Assembly: GCA_002162875.1 (NCBI GenBank)
Contig: MABA01000008.1
Coordinates: forward strand, 248,001-312,000
Source: Rhodobacterales bacterium 52_120_T64
GTDB taxonomy: Bacteria > Pseudomonadota > Alphaproteobacteria > Rhodobacterales > Rhodobacteraceae
Direction: 5' to 3'
Length of the DNA: 64,000 nt
The translations under genes and the position numbers were made by a program. Positions 51,532-57,982 of this stretch are shown piece after piece (positions within the stretch are counted from its first letter, which is position 1; the number at the start of each line of letters is the position of its first letter). A model generated the notes under the pieces. That model saw only the letters and a list, made by a program, of their open reading frames with translations, was not told where the DNA came from and did no database searches.

Positions 51532-52272
51532 ATGAGATTATCAGGAAAAACAGCCATTGTAACCGGTGGCGGATCAGGTTTCGGTGCTGGCATCGCCCGC
51601 AAATTCGCAGCGGAAGGAGCGCGTGTGATGGTTGCCGATATTAACCTTGAAGCCGCACAGGTGATTGCAGACGAAATCGGCGGAATCGCCCAACAAGTTG
51701 ACGTTGCCAACGGCGATAGCGTTCGTGGGATGGCGCAGGCTGCGTTTGGTGCGTTCAAAACCCTCGACATTCTGGTGAATAATGCGGGAATATCCCACAT
51801 GCCCGCCCCGATGGAAGATGTTTCCGAGGAAGACTTCGACAGAGTTCTGGCCGTCAATGCCAAGTCGGTCTACCTGACAGCGAAATACATCGTGCCGCAT
51901 ATGAAGGGGACCGGTTCTGGCGCGATCCTGAATGTCGCCTCGACAGCTGGGGTCAGCCCTCGGCCCAAGTTAAACTGGTATAACGCCTCCAAGGGGTGGA
52001 TGATTACCGCAACCAAGGCGATGGCAATAGAATTGGCGCCCGACGGAGTCCGTGTGAACGCAATCAATCCCGTCGCTGGCGAAACACCACTGCTGAAAAC
52101 ATTCATGGGCGAAGACACACCGGAGATTCGTGCCAAGTTCATCTCGACCATACCGTTGGGTCGGCTTTCTACTCCTGAAGATATGGCCAACGCGGCCCTT
52201 TTCCTATGCTCCGAGGAAGCCAGCATGATTACTGGCGTTGCCATGGAAGTTGACGGAGGTCGCTGCATATGA
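51532..52272 (+). CDS. Short-chain dehydrogenase/reductase
   Basis: 246 aa. Rossmann motif TGGGSGFGAGIA, NNAG structural motif, catalytic Ser in NVASTAGVSPRP, and Tyr/Lys in WYNASKGW; the ending ITGVAMEVDGGRC is typical of classical SDRs. Oxidises or reduces an alcohol/ketone of the pathway. AAGGAGA precedes the ATG; its stop overlaps the P1 hydrolase start by four bases. Confidence 0.93.
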   Translation: MRLSGKTAIVTGGGSGFGAGIARKFAAEGARVMVADINLEAAQVIADEIGGIAQQVDVANGDSVRGMAQAAFGAFKTLDILVNNAGISHMPAPMEDVSEEDFDRVLAVNAKSVYLTAKYIVPHMKGTGSGAILNVASTAGVSPRPKLNWYNASKGWMITATKAMAIELAPDGVRVNAINPVAGETPLLKTFMGEDTPEIRAKFISTIPLGRLSTPEDMANAALFLCSEEASMITGVAMEVDGGRCI

Positions 52273-53261
52273 AACTTGGCCCGCGTAATCTGATCACTGA
52301 TGTGGCCGGCCTGCGGGTTGGTAATGCCCAAGACGACGCGCTTAAGTCGGGCTGCACCGTATTGGTTGGTGATGCGCCCTTTACGGCAGCAGTTCACGTG
52401 ATGGGCGGTGCACCCGGAACGCGGGAAACGGAATTATTGGCACCTGACAAGCTGGTGCAGGAAGTTGATGCACTGGTGCTCTCGGGTGGCTCCGCCTTTG
52501 GGCTGGACGCGCCATCTGGCGTCTGCGACGGGCTTAGGGCAATGGGACGAGGGTTCAAAGTTGGCGACGCCACCATCCCAATCGTGCCTGGGGCGATCCT
52601 TTTTGATCTGTTGAATGGCGGGGACAAAGAATGGACGGACAATCCCTATAAACCTCTTGGGCTATCGGCGCTGTCCGATGCTTCCAAGAATTTTGCACTA
52701 GGTACAATCGGGGCCGGTACGGGCGCGACGACAAAAGAACTAAAAGGGGGCCTCGGCTCCGCCTCGGTGGTGCTCGACAATGGTATCACGATTGGTGCAT
52801 TGGTGGCAGTGAATGCCGTCGGGTCAGTTATTCAAGACGGTCAGCAACATTTCTGGGCTGCGCCGTTTGAAGTTAACGATGAATATGGTGGCCATGGATC
52901 TGCGGCTTCTCTGGATCCGTTAAGATCAACGCAACCGTTATCGCCACCGCACAGCACGAACACCACAATCGCTATCATCGCGACTGACGCGGACCTGACC
53001 CAAGCACAAGCCACTAGAATCGCCGTGGCTGCCCATGATGGAATGGCGCGCGCAATTGTGCCGAGTCACACACCCTTCGACGGCGATCTGATATTTGTTG
53101 CGGCGACGGGCAAAAGGCCATTAAACGATCCGCCTGCAGATCAACTCGCGATCGGTCATGCTGCTGCAGATTGCCTGTCTCGCGCCATTGCGCGTGGTGT
53201 TTATGAGGCGACTTCCGCACCCGGCGACACGCTGCCGACTTGGAACGAAAAATGGGAGTAG
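52269..53261 (+). CDS. P1-family N-terminal-nucleophile amidohydrolase (NylC/DmpA group)
   Basis: 330 aa. GPRNLITDVAGLRVGNAQD and VLSGGSAFGLDAPSGV are family landmarks. The putative autoprocessing site is Asn231-Thr232 in HSTNTTIAIIATDADL: the precursor would split there and Thr232 would become the nucleophile, as in NylC (Asn-Thr), whereas DmpA uses Gly-Ser. Known members cleave amides of non-alpha amino acids (beta-peptides, nylon oligomers, some aminopeptidase substrates). It is the last gene of the M20-ABC-ALDH-SDR set, coupled to the SDR. Confidence 0.9.
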   Translation: MKLGPRNLITDVAGLRVGNAQDDALKSGCTVLVGDAPFTAAVHVMGGAPGTRETELLAPDKLVQEVDALVLSGGSAFGLDAPSGVCDGLRAMGRGFKVGDATIPIVPGAILFDLLNGGDKEWTDNPYKPLGLSALSDASKNFALGTIGAGTGATTKELKGGLGSASVVLDNGITIGALVAVNAVGSVIQDGQQHFWAAPFEVNDEYGGHGSAASLDPLRSTQPLSPPHSTNTTIAIIATDADLTQAQATRIAVAAHDGMARAIVPSHTPFDGDLIFVAATGKRPLNDPPADQLAIGHAAADCLSRAIARGVYEATSAPGDTLPTWNEKWE

Positions 53262-53311
53262 GGTGCGTATAACACCCTCCACACCCAGAAATAGTTAACG
53301 CAAATTGTACA

Positions 53312-53344
53312 TACGTGTTGTGTACGGTTTGTGTACGTGTTGTG
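53312..53344. repeat. Three tandem 11-bp repeats in a convergent intergenic region
   Basis: TACGTGTTGTG (53312-53322), TACGGTTTGTG (53323-53333), TACGTGTTGTG (53334-53344): first and third identical, the middle differing at two positions. A partial further unit CACACG follows. The 11-bp period is close to one helical turn, so a protein could bind the same face repeatedly. It lies between the P1 gene (+) and gltX (-). Confidence 0.85.
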
Positions 53345-53375
53345 CACACGAAAAATACGTGATTTTGGCTAAAGG

Positions 53376-54695
53376 TTAACGCCCACCGATATTTTGTAAC
53401 AGCGGCAAAAGCTTCGACATATCCGGCCCGTGCTCCATCCCTGTTAATGCTTTTCTAAGGGGCATAAACAACCCCTTACCTTTGCGTCCAGTTGCCGCCT
53501 TCACCGCGGTTGTCCATTCTTTCCAAGCGGTGTCCGAGCGCGGTTCCGCTGGCAATAACTTCATCGCTTGATCGATGAAATCGCCATCTTCCGCATCGAC
53601 AACAGGTTCCACCCCATCGCGGCATAGCGCCCACAATGCGGCTATGTCAGCGCGGGTTTCGATGTTTTCGCGCGCCATTGCCCAAAACGGTGCAGCCAAA
53701 TCACCCGGAACTTCAAGCGCTTCCAGATCAGCCTGAACCGACGAAATGCCCATTGAATGCAATACCTTGGCCGACAGTGGTCCAAGGTCAGCTACATCAA
53801 ATTTAGTCGGTGCGGAACCAAAACTGGAAAGATCAAACCCGTCAATAAGATCAGCCAAGTGTTGTTGTAGTTCCAAGGGCTGCGAGGATCCGAGACGCGC
53901 CATGTGAGACAACAACGCCATCGGCTCAACCCCCTGTTCGCGAAGGTCTTTCAGTGCCAGTGTACCAAGGCGTTTAGACAATCCTTCACCCTGTGGGCCG
54001 GTCAACAGCGAGTGATGCGCGAAAGCCGGAACTGTCCCAACCAACGCCTCGATAATCTGGATTTGTGTTGCGGTATTTGTTACGTGATCAGACCCCCGAA
54101 CAACGTTCGTAATTCCGAAGTCCACATCGTCACAAACAGACGCCAGCGTATACAAAAACTGCCCGTCGCCACGGATCAAAACCGGGTCTGAAACACTGGC
54201 AGCATCAATGGATAAATCACCTAAAATTCCGTCATTCCACTCGATCCGTTCTTGGTCCAGCTTGAACCGCCAATGACCGGAACGCTCGGCCCGCAAAGCA
54301 TCCCGTTCGGCATCGGTAAGCGTCAACGCAGACCGATCGTAAACCGGAGGTTTGCGCATGTTTAATTGCTTCTTACGCTTCAGGTCCAACTCGGTAGGTG
54401 TTTCAAAACACTCGTAAAATCGCCCTGATGCGCGCAATTCATCAGCGGCCTCATTGTAGCGGTCCAGTCGTGAAGACTGCGTTTCAACACGGTCCCACAT
54501 CAAGCCCAACCAATCCATGTCACGCTTGATTTGGTCAGCAAATTCAACTGTAGAACGCGTCGGGTCTGTGTCATCCAGTCGTAAAATGAAGGTGCCGCCC
54601 GACTTGCGGGCAATCACCCAGTTGAACAAGGCGGTGCGCAAATTTCCGACGTGCAAAAATCCGGTGGGCGAGGGGGCGAAACGGGTAGTAGTCAT
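53376..54695 (-). CDS. gltX: Glutamyl-tRNA synthetase GltX
   Basis: 439 aa class I synthetase. HIGH-type motif in RFAPSPTGFLHVGNLRTALF; ILRLDDTDPTRS is the Glu-recognition region; KMSKS-type motif GLSKRLG. Charges tRNA-Glu (and possibly tRNA-Gln in bacteria using GatCAB; alphaproteobacteria often do). ATG 54695 has GGAGAG seven bases upstream and overlaps the nadE stop by four bases. The longer in-frame TTG start (54710) is not needed. Confidence 0.95.
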   Translation of the reverse strand: MTTTRFAPSPTGFLHVGNLRTALFNWVIARKSGGTFILRLDDTDPTRSTVEFADQIKRDMDWLGLMWDRVETQSSRLDRYNEAADELRASGRFYECFETPTELDLKRKKQLNMRKPPVYDRSALTLTDAERDALRAERSGHWRFKLDQERIEWNDGILGDLSIDAASVSDPVLIRGDGQFLYTLASVCDDVDFGITNVVRGSDHVTNTATQIQIIEALVGTVPAFAHHSLLTGPQGEGLSKRLGTLALKDLREQGVEPMALLSHMARLGSSQPLELQQHLADLIDGFDLSSFGSAPTKFDVADLGPLSAKVLHSMGISSVQADLEALEVPGDLAAPFWAMARENIETRADIAALWALCRDGVEPVVDAEDGDFIDQAMKLLPAEPRSDTAWKEWTTAVKAATGRKGKGLFMPLRKALTGMEHGPDMSKLLPLLQNIGGR

Positions 54696-56350
54696 GATGG
54701 GTCTCTCCAACGGTTGGCAATGGGATAGCGGCGGTCCAGCCAGAATGCGCGTTTGGTCAGGCGCGGTCCTGGGGCCGACTGGAAGCGTTTGTATTCGCTG
54801 ATATAGAGCAGGTGTTCAACCTTTTTCACGGTATCGCGGTCATATCCGGCGGCAACACATTCGGACACGGCGGCGTCCCCTTCCATCAACATGGTCAGTA
54901 TACCATCGAGGACATCATAAGGCGGCAAGGAATCTTCGTCTTTTTGATCCTCGCGCAGCTCTGCAGTTGGTGGTTTTTCGATGATATTTACTGGAATTAC
55001 GGCGCCCTCTGGGCCCTTCATCCAAGTTGCGTAATTTTCGTTACGCCAACGGCAGGTCGCGAAAACGCGGGTTTTGTAAAGGTCTTTGATGGGGTTGTAT
55101 CCACCCGCCATGTCCCCGTAAATTGTAGCGTAACCTACTGCAACTTCGGACTTATTTCCTGTGGTCAATAGCATTGCCCCGAACTTGTTCGACATCGCCA
55201 TCAGCAATAAACCGCGAAGACGGGACTGGATGTTTTCTTCGGTTATGTCTGCATCGAAACCTTCGAACAAAGGCGCCAACGTATTCGTGATCGCAGCGCG
55301 CCCTTCGGATATCGATATGTTGTCCAAGCGGCATCCTAGTGATGCAGCCACGTCTGCTGCATCATCCAGCGATTCCTGCGAGGTATATTCCGAAGGCATC
55401 ATCACGCAATGAACGTTTTCCGGTCCCAAAGCATCGGCTGCAATTGTTGCTACAATAGCAGAATCCACTCCGCCGGAGAGTCCGAGGATCACCTTGGAAA
55501 ATCCGGTTTTCCGCATGTAATCCCGCAGGCCTTCGACCATTGCGCGATATTCCTGTTCTTCCAGCGAGGGATGGTCTGCAAGGTCGCCGTCCAAGGCACG
55601 CCAACCGTCCGGCGTTTGCTCGAAATAGACCTCTGTATAAGCTTCGTCGAACAGTGGCATCCGCGCAACCATCTTGCCACCCGGGTTCAATACGAACGAC
55701 CCACCGTCAAAGATTTGATCATCCTGCCCGCCAACCATGTTGAGGTAAATCAGCGGCAATCCAGTTTCGACCACGCGACTTACCATATGGTTAATACGAC
55801 GGTCGAATTTACCGCTGTAATAGGGCGAACCATTCGGGACCAATAGTAATTCTGCGCCACTTTCGGCCATGGTTTCGCAGACGTCCTCGTGCCATGCATC
55901 TTCGCAAATCGGGGTGCCAACGCGGATCGGACCGAGGCTGAAAGGGCCAGATATCTGCGCTGATTCAAACAATCGCTGTTCGTCAAAAACCTGCGTATTT
56001 GGTAAGTGATGCTTGCGCGTGAGAGTGTGTATTTTGCCGTTCTTTAGAACGTAATAGGCATTGTAAACTTTGCCGTCCTCAAGTACCGGCGCACCTATCC
56101 CAAGGGCCGGGCCATTCGCACAATCAGCTGCCAAACCCTCCAAAGCATCAGCCACAGAATCCAGAAAAGCGGGTTTGGTCACCAAATCTTGTGTTTGGTA
56201 GCCTGTCAAAAACATCTCGGGCAAAGCCACGAGGTCAGCATTTTTCTGTGTGCCTCGTTTATGGGCTTCGACGGCTTTGGCCGCATTGCCTGCAATATCA
56301 CCTACGGTCGGGTTCAATTGGCAAAGAGATAGACAAAAATTAACCGACAT
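54692..56350 (-). CDS. nadE: Glutamine-dependent NAD+ synthetase NadE
   Basis: 552 aa, two domains. The N-terminal nitrilase-fold glutaminase has Glu45 (VALPEMFLTGY), Lys113 (TRKHHLPNTQ) and Cys149 (GTPICEDAWH). The C-terminal NAD synthase domain has PP-loop LGLSGGVDSAIVATI, and TGNKSEVAVGYATIYGDMAG. The glutaminase domain makes it independent of free ammonia. Translationally coupled to gltX. Divergent from the MORN-repeat gene across about 215 bases. Confidence 0.96.
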   Translation of the reverse strand: MSVNFCLSLCQLNPTVGDIAGNAAKAVEAHKRGTQKNADLVALPEMFLTGYQTQDLVTKPAFLDSVADALEGLAADCANGPALGIGAPVLEDGKVYNAYYVLKNGKIHTLTRKHHLPNTQVFDEQRLFESAQISGPFSLGPIRVGTPICEDAWHEDVCETMAESGAELLLVPNGSPYYSGKFDRRINHMVSRVVETGLPLIYLNMVGGQDDQIFDGGSFVLNPGGKMVARMPLFDEAYTEVYFEQTPDGWRALDGDLADHPSLEEQEYRAMVEGLRDYMRKTGFSKVILGLSGGVDSAIVATIAADALGPENVHCVMMPSEYTSQESLDDAADVAASLGCRLDNISISEGRAAITNTLAPLFEGFDADITEENIQSRLRGLLLMAMSNKFGAMLLTTGNKSEVAVGYATIYGDMAGGYNPIKDLYKTRVFATCRWRNENYATWMKGPEGAVIPVNIIEKPPTAELREDQKDEDSLPPYDVLDGILTMLMEGDAAVSECVAAGYDRDTVKKVEHLLYISEYKRFQSAPGPRLTKRAFWLDRRYPIANRWRDPS

Positions 56351-56566: not shown

Positions 56567-57982
56567 TTGAAAAAAGTCATTCTTTTCGGTACCGCAATAG
56601 TAGTCTTGGCGATGTCGCCCGCCTTATCGCAAGAAGGCAGTGTCCAGATCAAACAGTATGACACTGGCGGTATATACGAGGGTGAATTCCTCGACGGAAA
56701 GCAGCACGGGCTGGGAACTTACCGTTTGCCCAATGGCTATGAATACACTGGAGAATGGGTTGCTGGCCGAATCGAAGGTGTGGGTAAAGCCACTTATCCC
56801 GATGGCTCGGTTTATGACGGCGCGTTTATTAACGGCCGCCCCGAAGGTCAGGGCAAGATTGTTTTTGCTGATGGCGGCACTTTTGAAGGTAGCTGGGTAG
56901 ACGGTAAAATTGCGGGCAGTGGTGTTGCGATCTATGCCAACGGCGTGCGTTACGAAGGTCAATTCGAAAATGCGGTGCATCACGGTGTCGGCGTTATGAC
57001 CAGCGAAAACGGTTACCGTTATGAAGGTGACTGGGTCGAGGGTACGAAACACGGCCAGGGTACGATCACGTATTCTGATGGTGCAATCTACGAAGGCGAT
57101 ATCGTTCGCGGCGTTCGCCAAGGTGCCGGCAGTCTGACGTTGCCCGATGGCTTGGTCTACACTGGTAGCTGGGAAAACGGCCAGATTAACGGCAGTGGTG
57201 TCCTGACACAGGCGAACGGCGACCGTTATGAAGGCGATATGGTTAACGGCCAGCGGCAGGGCCAAGGCGTGGCTGCCTATGCATCAGGCGACCGCTATGA
57301 AGGCACGTTTGAGGGTGATTTGCGTCACGGCGAAGGTGTTTTCAACGGCGCAGACGGCTATATATACGACGGCGATTGGGTCGAAGGCCGGATCGAGGGG
57401 CAAGGTGAAGTTACGTATCCTGACGGATCCATTTACGTAGGTTCTTTCCTGAACGATGTGGCCCACGACGTTGGTATGATCACCTATCCCGATGGCAGCT
57501 CTTATGAGGGTAACTGGGTCAACGGAATTATCGAAGGCTCGGGTATCGCAAAATACGGCAACGGTTTGGTTTATGAAGGCGAATTCCTGAACGCCAAAAA
57601 TCACGGCAGAGGCACAATGGTGTATCAAGACGGCTACCAATACACCGGCGATTGGGAAAACGGCTTGCGCCACGGTGATGGTGTTGCGACATACGCTGAT
57701 GGCACCCTTTACACCGGCGGTTTCGTAAGCGGGCAACGCGAAGGTACCGGAACAATCACTATGTCTGATGGTTTTGAATACGCAGGTGGCTGGAAAGCTG
57801 GCGAGATCGACGGCGACGGTGTGGCGCGCTATCCGAATGGCGACGTTTATGAGGGGCTATTCAGCAAAGGCCAGCGTCAGGGTCGCGGCGTTATGCGTTA
57901 TGCTAGCGGTGAAGAATATGACGGTTTCTGGGCCAATGGCCAGCGTTCTACCGAGGCTGAAGCGGCTGCAGCGAACAACTGA
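56567..57982 (+). CDS. Secreted MORN-repeat protein with about 19 repeats
   Basis: 471 aa. A signal peptide (MKKVILFGTAIVVLAMSPALSQ) is followed by about 18 full and one partial MORN motifs of 23 residues (pattern YEGxWxxGxxxGxGxxxYxxG), e.g. YEGEFLDGKQHGLGTYRLPNG and YTGSWENGQINGSGVLTQANG, filling the whole mature protein with no other domain. The tail (TEAEAAAANN) is polar. MORN arrays form elongated beta-sheets that bind lipids or proteins; this one is exported. Starts at TTG 56567, with GGAAGG upstream. Ends at a clear intrinsic terminator. Confidence 0.9.
   Translation: MKKVILFGTAIVVLAMSPALSQEGSVQIKQYDTGGIYEGEFLDGKQHGLGTYRLPNGYEYTGEWVAGRIEGVGKATYPDGSVYDGAFINGRPEGQGKIVFADGGTFEGSWVDGKIAGSGVAIYANGVRYEGQFENAVHHGVGVMTSENGYRYEGDWVEGTKHGQGTITYSDGAIYEGDIVRGVRQGAGSLTLPDGLVYTGSWENGQINGSGVLTQANGDRYEGDMVNGQRQGQGVAAYASGDRYEGTFEGDLRHGEGVFNGADGYIYDGDWVEGRIEGQGEVTYPDGSIYVGSFLNDVAHDVGMITYPDGSSYEGNWVNGIIEGSGIAKYGNGLVYEGEFLNAKNHGRGTMVYQDGYQYTGDWENGLRHGDGVATYADGTLYTGGFVSGQREGTGTITMSDGFEYAGGWKAGEIDGDGVARYPNGDVYEGLFSKGQRQGRGVMRYASGEEYDGFWANGQRSTEAEAAAANN

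Follow-up and report, generated by a model that had tools for sequence, protein, structure and literature searches.

A dispersed family of replication-oriented 11-bp tandem arrays in a Rhodobacteraceae genome, and a linked ribbon-helix-helix gene as its putative partner

Introduction

Between two convergent genes of Rhodobacterales bacterium 52_120_T64, three 11-bp units follow one another without interruption. The question raised by this locus is whether such an array is a product of chance slippage or a functional element and, if the latter, what it serves. It was considered here both in the window, i.e. the whole stretch of 64,000 nucleotides that was analysed, and in the genomes of the organism and its relatives. 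Three features of the array lay beyond the reach of the original prediction, which was made from the window alone: its dispersal, its orientation relative to replication and its linkage to a ribbon-helix-helix (RHH) gene. The arrays are, in our judgement, probably the binding sites of an autoregulated BrnA-family RHH protein and serve as chromosome-wide, replication-polar landmarks. The binding, the autoregulation and the role are all inferred, and there are no binding data.

Results

The array and its surroundings

The array occupies positions 53312-53344 on the plus strand and reads TACGTGTTGTG, TACGGTTTGTG, TACGTGTTGTG, head to tail and free of gaps. The unit is YACGnnTTGTG, with nn being TG, GT and TG in turn. 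Tandem Repeats Finder gave this array the top score of the window (52, the second being 39), and the three contiguous repeats originally predicted here are exact. The predicted location between convergent genes was likewise borne out: the array lies in a 114-bp gap flanked by the genes for an S58 peptidase (52269-53261, plus strand) and glutamyl-tRNA synthetase (gltX; 53376-54710, minus strand). The accompanying statement that no coding sequence overlaps the array holds for likely genes, but not to the letter, as one listed ORF of 111 aa on the minus strand, mostly antisense to the S58 peptidase gene, does run across it. It is the only listed ORF to do so, and is unlikely to be a gene.

The conserved element is larger than 53312-53344. 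To the left of the array is a partial unit, AAATTGTACA (53302-53311, plus strand; consensus AAAnYGTRCA), recognized from identity in the 19 orthologous pairs described below. At the right edge is CACACG (53345-53350, plus strand), the YAC part of which (CAC, 53345-53347) completes a fourth TTGTGYAC-like core. GTTAAC boxes, assigned to neither strand, lie outside these at 53294-53299 and 53375-53380, the right-hand one overlapping the stop codon of gltX on the minus strand. It is unknown whether the GTTAAC boxes bind the same protein as the arrays.

It is the array, and not the single 11-mer, that is unusual. With up to two mismatches, the single 11-mer was not above chance in the window (12 matches versus 15.3 expected). 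The left edge together with the first unit (TTGTRCATACGnnTTGTG, up to one mismatch) had a single match in the window, and 100 shuffled sequences gave none.

An RNA element was considered and rejected. RNA folding of the array gap was no better than that of shuffled sequences (z -1.28), and no terminator-like site was present in the gap; the two that were found in the region are both inside the S58 peptidase gene. When Rfam was applied at its gathering threshold to seven loci, the only matches were to tRNA, tmRNA and a ribosomal leader, and no match coincided with an array. Linkage to tRNA genes was rejected as well, since ARAGORN identified only two tRNAs in 11 loci of 20 kb, their distances to the arrays being 2.6 and 3.7 kb. 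Elsewhere in the window, at 56567-57982, a 471-aa ORF is composed of repeated motifs that, by eye, resemble MORN repeats.

Copies in the same genome

The genome of the organism (G000; 3.42 Mb in 26 contigs) has as its nearest relatives, in a search with the GltX protein, Rhodobacteraceae MAGs, the nearest named genera being Amylibacter and Neptunicoccus. A two-unit pattern with up to three mismatches was matched 41 times in this genome, versus four for the reversed pattern. The three-unit pattern with up to two mismatches recovered 24 arrays, that of the window included, versus none in the control. Together with a two-unit array at C15:30343, the total is about 25. The window array is one copy of a dispersed family of that size.

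It is apparent that these copies share a common layout, consisting of AAAnYGTRCA, three repeats of YACGnnTTGTG and a final YAC, all in one register around a 33-bp array, with GTTAAC boxes outside. Genes and gaps were called with an in-house codon-bias script; GTTAAC was present in 23 of the 24 array-bearing gaps as opposed to 53 of 421 other gaps, and 18 of the 24 arrays had GTTAA both to the left and to the right, at no more than 70 bp. No long body is shared by the copies beyond the array itself.

Range within the family

Exact two-unit matches were observed in nine of 13 genomes of the same genus; the other four had none. The three-unit pattern with up to two mismatches was found in seven of 394 genomes of the family, and one with a looser unit but no mismatches in nine of 149 genomes of the order, with no matches in either control. 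When up to two mismatches were allowed, the 12 array-bearing genomes that were retested gave 5-36 matches each and five chosen array-negative genomes gave none, the reversed control for these 17 genomes yielding four matches in total. A class-wide draw of 192 genomes produced matches only in G000, G565 (two) and G594 (one), and the pattern is nearly absent outside the Rhodobacteraceae.

In other genera of the family the units have drifted to GTGYACRnnnn. A pattern admitting either of two cores, GTGYAC or GTGCAT, was matched in 10 of 51 genomes, including G030 (59 matches), G074 (19), G083 (6) and G086 (4); its control gave 10 matches overall, seven of them in G000 and its sister species G003. 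The number of matches is not the number of arrays, as near-palindromic arrays of the G443 type were counted on both strands. Array searches also require the unit of the lineage concerned, and genomes scored as array-negative may hold unrecognized versions.

Orientation and chromosomal distribution

The leading strand was marked by GC skew at fourfold-degenerate third positions, over flanks of up to 10 kb to the left and right of each array; the limit was 5 kb in G003, and flanks were shorter where a fetched piece ended. By convention, the G-rich strand was taken as leading. Array direction was opposite to the local skew for 83 of 107 arrays in six genomes, and for 53 of the 55 arrays at which the absolute fourfold skew was at least 0.10. 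The individual values were 20/24 in G000, 24/25 in G003, 12/16 in G466, 11/22 in G443, 11/13 in G285 and 5/7 in G109. G000 and G003 share most of their sites and are not independent; the four genomes outside the genus (G466, G443, G285 and G109), for each of which only part of the arrays was used, gave 39/58, and 20/22 at an absolute skew of at least 0.10. No polarity was evident in G443 (11 versus 11), where the skew is weak; at its sites of clear skew the ratio was 2 versus 0. These determinations employed the directional pattern, the strand reported by the looser one being unreliable for near-palindromic arrays (L382, L355). The orientation bias is strong, but not absolute.

In tandem gaps, the ++ and -- arrays numbered 5 and 5 in G000, 4 and 6 in G003, 1 and 4 in G466 (with seven arrays scored), 5 and 5 in G443, 5 and 2 in G285, and 1 and 2 in G109. 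Because the arrays in tandem gaps face either way relative to the genes, replication, and not transcription, is taken to be the reference for their orientation.

The origin of G000 is placed near C18:30 kb (mnmG and a skew switch) and the terminus near C19:420-472 kb (a skew switch and a dif-like site). Two arrays are found 17 and 42 kb from the C19 dif-like site, and others are far away. Uniform spread was not rejected for contigs C1 and C2 of G443 or for C14 of G285 (Kolmogorov-Smirnov p 0.47, 0.85 and 0.78; 17, 7 and 10 sites); the two G443 contigs make up nearly the whole genome, and origin and terminus are unmapped in both G443 and G285. A macrodomain restricted to the terminus was rejected on the basis of this spread. 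Dif-like sites were observed in G000 at both C16:62390 and C19:472477 (one and two mismatches). The former may belong to another replicon, since it is C19 that carries the terminus-like skew switch.

A polar replication-fork barrier would account for part of these data. The bound array would stop forks travelling the wrong way, as Tus-ter does, and so force travel from origin to terminus. According to the available portion of the source, the direction of ter sites is fixed relative to replication, the sites serve the termination area, and tus is situated beside one of them (PMC10331603). The arrays resemble ter sites in being replication-oriented (83:24 overall and 53:2 at clear skew) and in having the gene for the candidate protein, described below, next to one site. 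They differ in that this protein is of the RHH type and in that they are spread along the two main contigs of G443 and C14 of G285, not clustered in a termination area. In the absence of any arrest data, we regard the barrier as unlikely, though not to be discounted.

Alternatively, a global transcription regulator might use the arrays as its operators, or they might be terminators or insulators at gene ends. It is apparent that they favour convergent gaps, which hold 14 of 25 arrays compared with 47 of 357 other gaps in the sampled regions (all gaps less the array-bearing ones; p=2e-6). This preference would suit gene-end elements, and it also supports the view, advanced at the outset, that the array is not a promoter operator. 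In other genera some sites lie 20-40 bp ahead of genes, for example one presumed to encode dihydrolipoamide dehydrogenase, and RHH proteins are often repressors. Against regulation, divergent gaps account for only one of 24 arrays in G000, and the direction of the arrays, which ignores transcription in tandem gaps, tracks replication; against termination stand the lack of a terminator-like site in the window's gap and its unexceptional fold. This explanation thus appears rather improbable.

A linked BrnA-type gene

When the proteins adjoining arrays were compared for the loci of 16 genomes, the most widespread family, of 115-141 aa, was represented in six groups (G000 and G003 being counted once). 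The next, in five groups, is encoded by a metabolic gene, and looks like dihydrolipoamide dehydrogenase. All seven of the 115-141-aa proteins scanned scored above the Pfam gathering threshold for PF14384 (BrnA, RHH). In at least 13 genomes, i.e. 13 of 13 with an array beside the gene, 73-110 bp separate the array from the point at which the RHH profile match begins, and the orientation is divergent; the chance of such adjacency is roughly 0.001 per genome. This count leaves out G001, G009, G030, G074, G328, G430, G445 and G476. No array adjoins the RHH gene among the matches listed in G004, G106 and G008.

No other neighbour was common across genera at eight RHH loci, the sole exception being a pair of GTPases that matched weakly; no more than about 2-3 kb was covered at four of the loci. 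BrnT was not recognized by eye among the neighbours of the eight RHH genes, several loci ending soon after the gene, nor was ParA in the first 50 residues of those neighbours. Three neighbours scanned against Pfam contained PIN_3, HicB and RTX repeats. The PIN_3-domain gene and a HicB-like gene lie close downstream of the RHH gene in G023 (L347:1609-2662), where they possibly form a toxin-antitoxin pair. At L280, near 10093 (G000 C3:438094), the array sits between the RHH gene, which lies at about C3:438200-438559, and the 3' end of a neighbouring gene, presumably rpoH.

A profile built from seven RHH proteins was searched against 30 genomes. Strong matches (E <1e-20) were obtained in 20 of 23 array-bearing genomes, seven of which had supplied members of the profile, and in four of seven array-negative ones. 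The three array-bearing genomes G285 (100% complete), G005 and G002 gave no match at E 1e-4. The match in G313 is interrupted by two stop codons, and that in G086 is to a short domain only. In the set of 51 genomes mentioned above (46 of the family and five of other families), full-length matches were found in seven of nine genomes with at least three pattern matches, versus nine of 42 others (Fisher p=0.0024), with the full-length cut-off (E <1e-18) chosen after the list had been seen. The value was p=0.008 with G008 taken as negative, 0.015 without G000 and G003, and 0.005 without the other families; with all three changes combined it was weakened to 0.07. The cleanest test is provided by G083, in which arrays and RHH gene came from independent searches and were found side by side. 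AlphaFold models of the protein were poor (mean pLDDT 63.6 and 57.6), and no PDB chain matched the RHH profile at E up to 1.

It could be argued that the arrays are bound by another protein, the RHH gene being merely one of its targets. The array-bearing genomes without a detectable RHH gene would be explained in this way, as would the full-length RHH genes in nine of the 42 genomes without detectable arrays. Such a coincidence is harder to reconcile with the RHH family being the array neighbour in most genera (six groups versus five for the metabolic gene), with the variation of its other neighbours between loci, with the adjacency in at least 13 genomes and with the co-occurrence. Another binder is thus possible, but we give it little weight. 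G005 is a 2.1-Mb relative with 13 pattern matches, and its arrays are possibly decaying after loss of the protein.

Conservation at orthologous sites

Of 25 arrays in G003, 21 could be paired with a G000 array by their flanking genes, which matched on both sides in 17 cases and on one side in four; three further G003 arrays, found later, lie outside the 25 compared. Nineteen pairs were compared letter by letter, after omission of a one-sided pair at a contig end and of one with a two-unit array. Identity was 99.6% at the fixed letters, 74% at Y positions and 53% at nn, and the left and right outer flanks gave 53% and 66%, respectively. Within the left partial unit, seven of ten letters were identical at a frequency of 0.89-1.0 and three at 0.47-0.68, the value further out being 0.53; the A and C that follow the array gave 0.95 and 0.84. 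The window's own site was occupied (up to one mismatch) in four of 80 gltX loci fetched, all of them among the five closest relatives; the fifth, L095, had no array by this pattern. G003, as judged by flanking genes, also has an array at the window's site.

From these comparisons the family is inferred to be conserved under selection, site by site. Because the fixed letters are conserved and nn and the flanks drift, neither mobile repeats nor slippage explain the arrays. A dispersed mobile repeat of the REP or MITE kind, inserting at gene ends with a replication-strand bias, would be expected to be numerous, intergenic and strand-biased, as the arrays are. It is largely refuted by the matching positions of 21 of 25 arrays in the sister species, by the letter-by-letter selection inside the element with drift outside, by the lack of a long shared body and, in the window's copy, of inverted repeats, and we consider it very improbable. 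Chance slippage, for which only the shortness of the tandem repeat speaks, is refuted by the genome-wide recurrence and conservation and by the 0/100 shuffles, and can be dismissed. The original prediction had held that absence of the array from close relatives would suggest slippage; searches of its own and related genomes found the family conserved.

Discussion

Proposed mechanism

With the copies, their site-by-site conservation, their polarity relative to GC skew and the linkage of gene and array demonstrated, the landmark reading can be set out in more detail. About 25 chromosomal sites would be bound by a small autoregulated RHH protein, apparently without a BrnT toxin partner. RHH dimers would line up in head-to-tail fashion on about four TTGTGYAC-like cores per site, with one dimer to each helical turn, and the bound array would form a nucleoprotein patch whose two ends differ. 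If the G-rich strand is the leading one, the TACGnnTTGTG strand would at most sites run against fork movement, and the fork would there meet the ...TTGTGCAC end first. The most likely role, itself an inference, is that of a polar landmark in the replication or segregation of the chromosome and not in control of adjacent genes; it is preferred on the grounds that the arrays lie between genes, are distributed along the chromosome and are indifferent to the direction of transcription. The earlier suggestion of a protein-binding or structural site is strengthened by the genome-wide conservation and by the existence of a candidate protein, the binding itself still being inferred.

Comparison with known systems

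MatP is also of the RHH type, and its chromosomal sites likewise number about two dozen. Each such site, matS, consists of one 13-bp palindrome and occurs only in the terminus macrodomain, whereas the arrays consist of tandem asymmetric units and are polar and spread; the arrays do not qualify as matS sites.

The closest precedent for contiguous repeats in a protein's own promoter would, by analogy, be omega of plasmid pSM19035. As described in the accessible part of the source, this RHH ParB binds parS arrays of contiguous non-palindromic heptads, of which four or more are needed, and the sites overlap with promoters, among them the one from which omega itself is expressed (PMC9499535). The two systems have in common an RHH protein and contiguous repeats in its own promoter region, established here by sequence linkage only. 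They differ in that omega belongs to a plasmid system with ParA and has six sites, at which 7-bp repeats point in mixed directions; the arrays here have 11-bp units, one direction within an array and about 25 sites genome-wide.

KOPS and AIMS share with the arrays a replication-strand bias. The latter are octamers, with at least 96 copies in the E. coli criterion of the paper, and are commoner towards the terminus, as far as its available text goes (PMC5993296). About 25 intergenic arrays of three 11-bp units do not meet the criterion of an octamer in many copies. As for a rise in abundance towards the terminus, the distribution was uniform on the three contigs, on which the terminus is unmapped and sites are few. 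BrnAT is known to bind a promoter, to judge from the part of the report at hand (PMC5086665), and the BrnA domain (PF14384) is common to both; the present system differs in its roughly 25 dispersed arrays and in that no BrnT was recognized among the neighbours seen.

Two other identities were rejected. TTGTGYACG with 2-bp spacers is similar to tandem DnaA boxes in layout, its letters differing from the generally known consensus. A plasmid origin was not supported: no plasmid record covers 80% of the RHH protein (a BrnA-domain match was present in 479 records), and the 97-bp element had no blastn match in plasmid records.

Significance and wider distribution

No published description of the array system was found in a search that did not extend to most subscription journals or to any preprints. 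We know of no system with chromosome-wide, replication-polar landmarks in the form of tandem arrays, and to our knowledge little is known of how direction is sensed on alphaproteobacterial chromosomes away from the origin and terminus. Since the sites are few, long, polar and conserved in position, and only one protein is a candidate, the question can be put to a direct test in relatives that grow in culture. A further implication is that another function may lie behind some of the genes annotated as orphan BrnA antitoxins. The system could also exemplify a DNA-binding protein and dozens of sites that shift specificity together.

A broader proposal, which we put forward only tentatively, is that of a system common to the Rhodobacteraceae, in which a solo RHH protein would mark the direction of replication over the entire chromosome via about 25 polar tandem arrays, protein and site diverging together between lineages. 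There are no data on joint divergence. The core is GTGYAC in most lineages and GTGCAT in G008 and G083, G008 having one clear array. That array, at L035:1490-1545, is a diverged one, ATGCATGCTTGGTGCATGGTTTGTGCATAGGTTGTGCATACC, with a right-hand GGTTAACG box; its core is GTGCAT and not GTGYAC, and the layout is the same. It is situated upstream of a gene that we presume to be alcohol-dehydrogenase-like.
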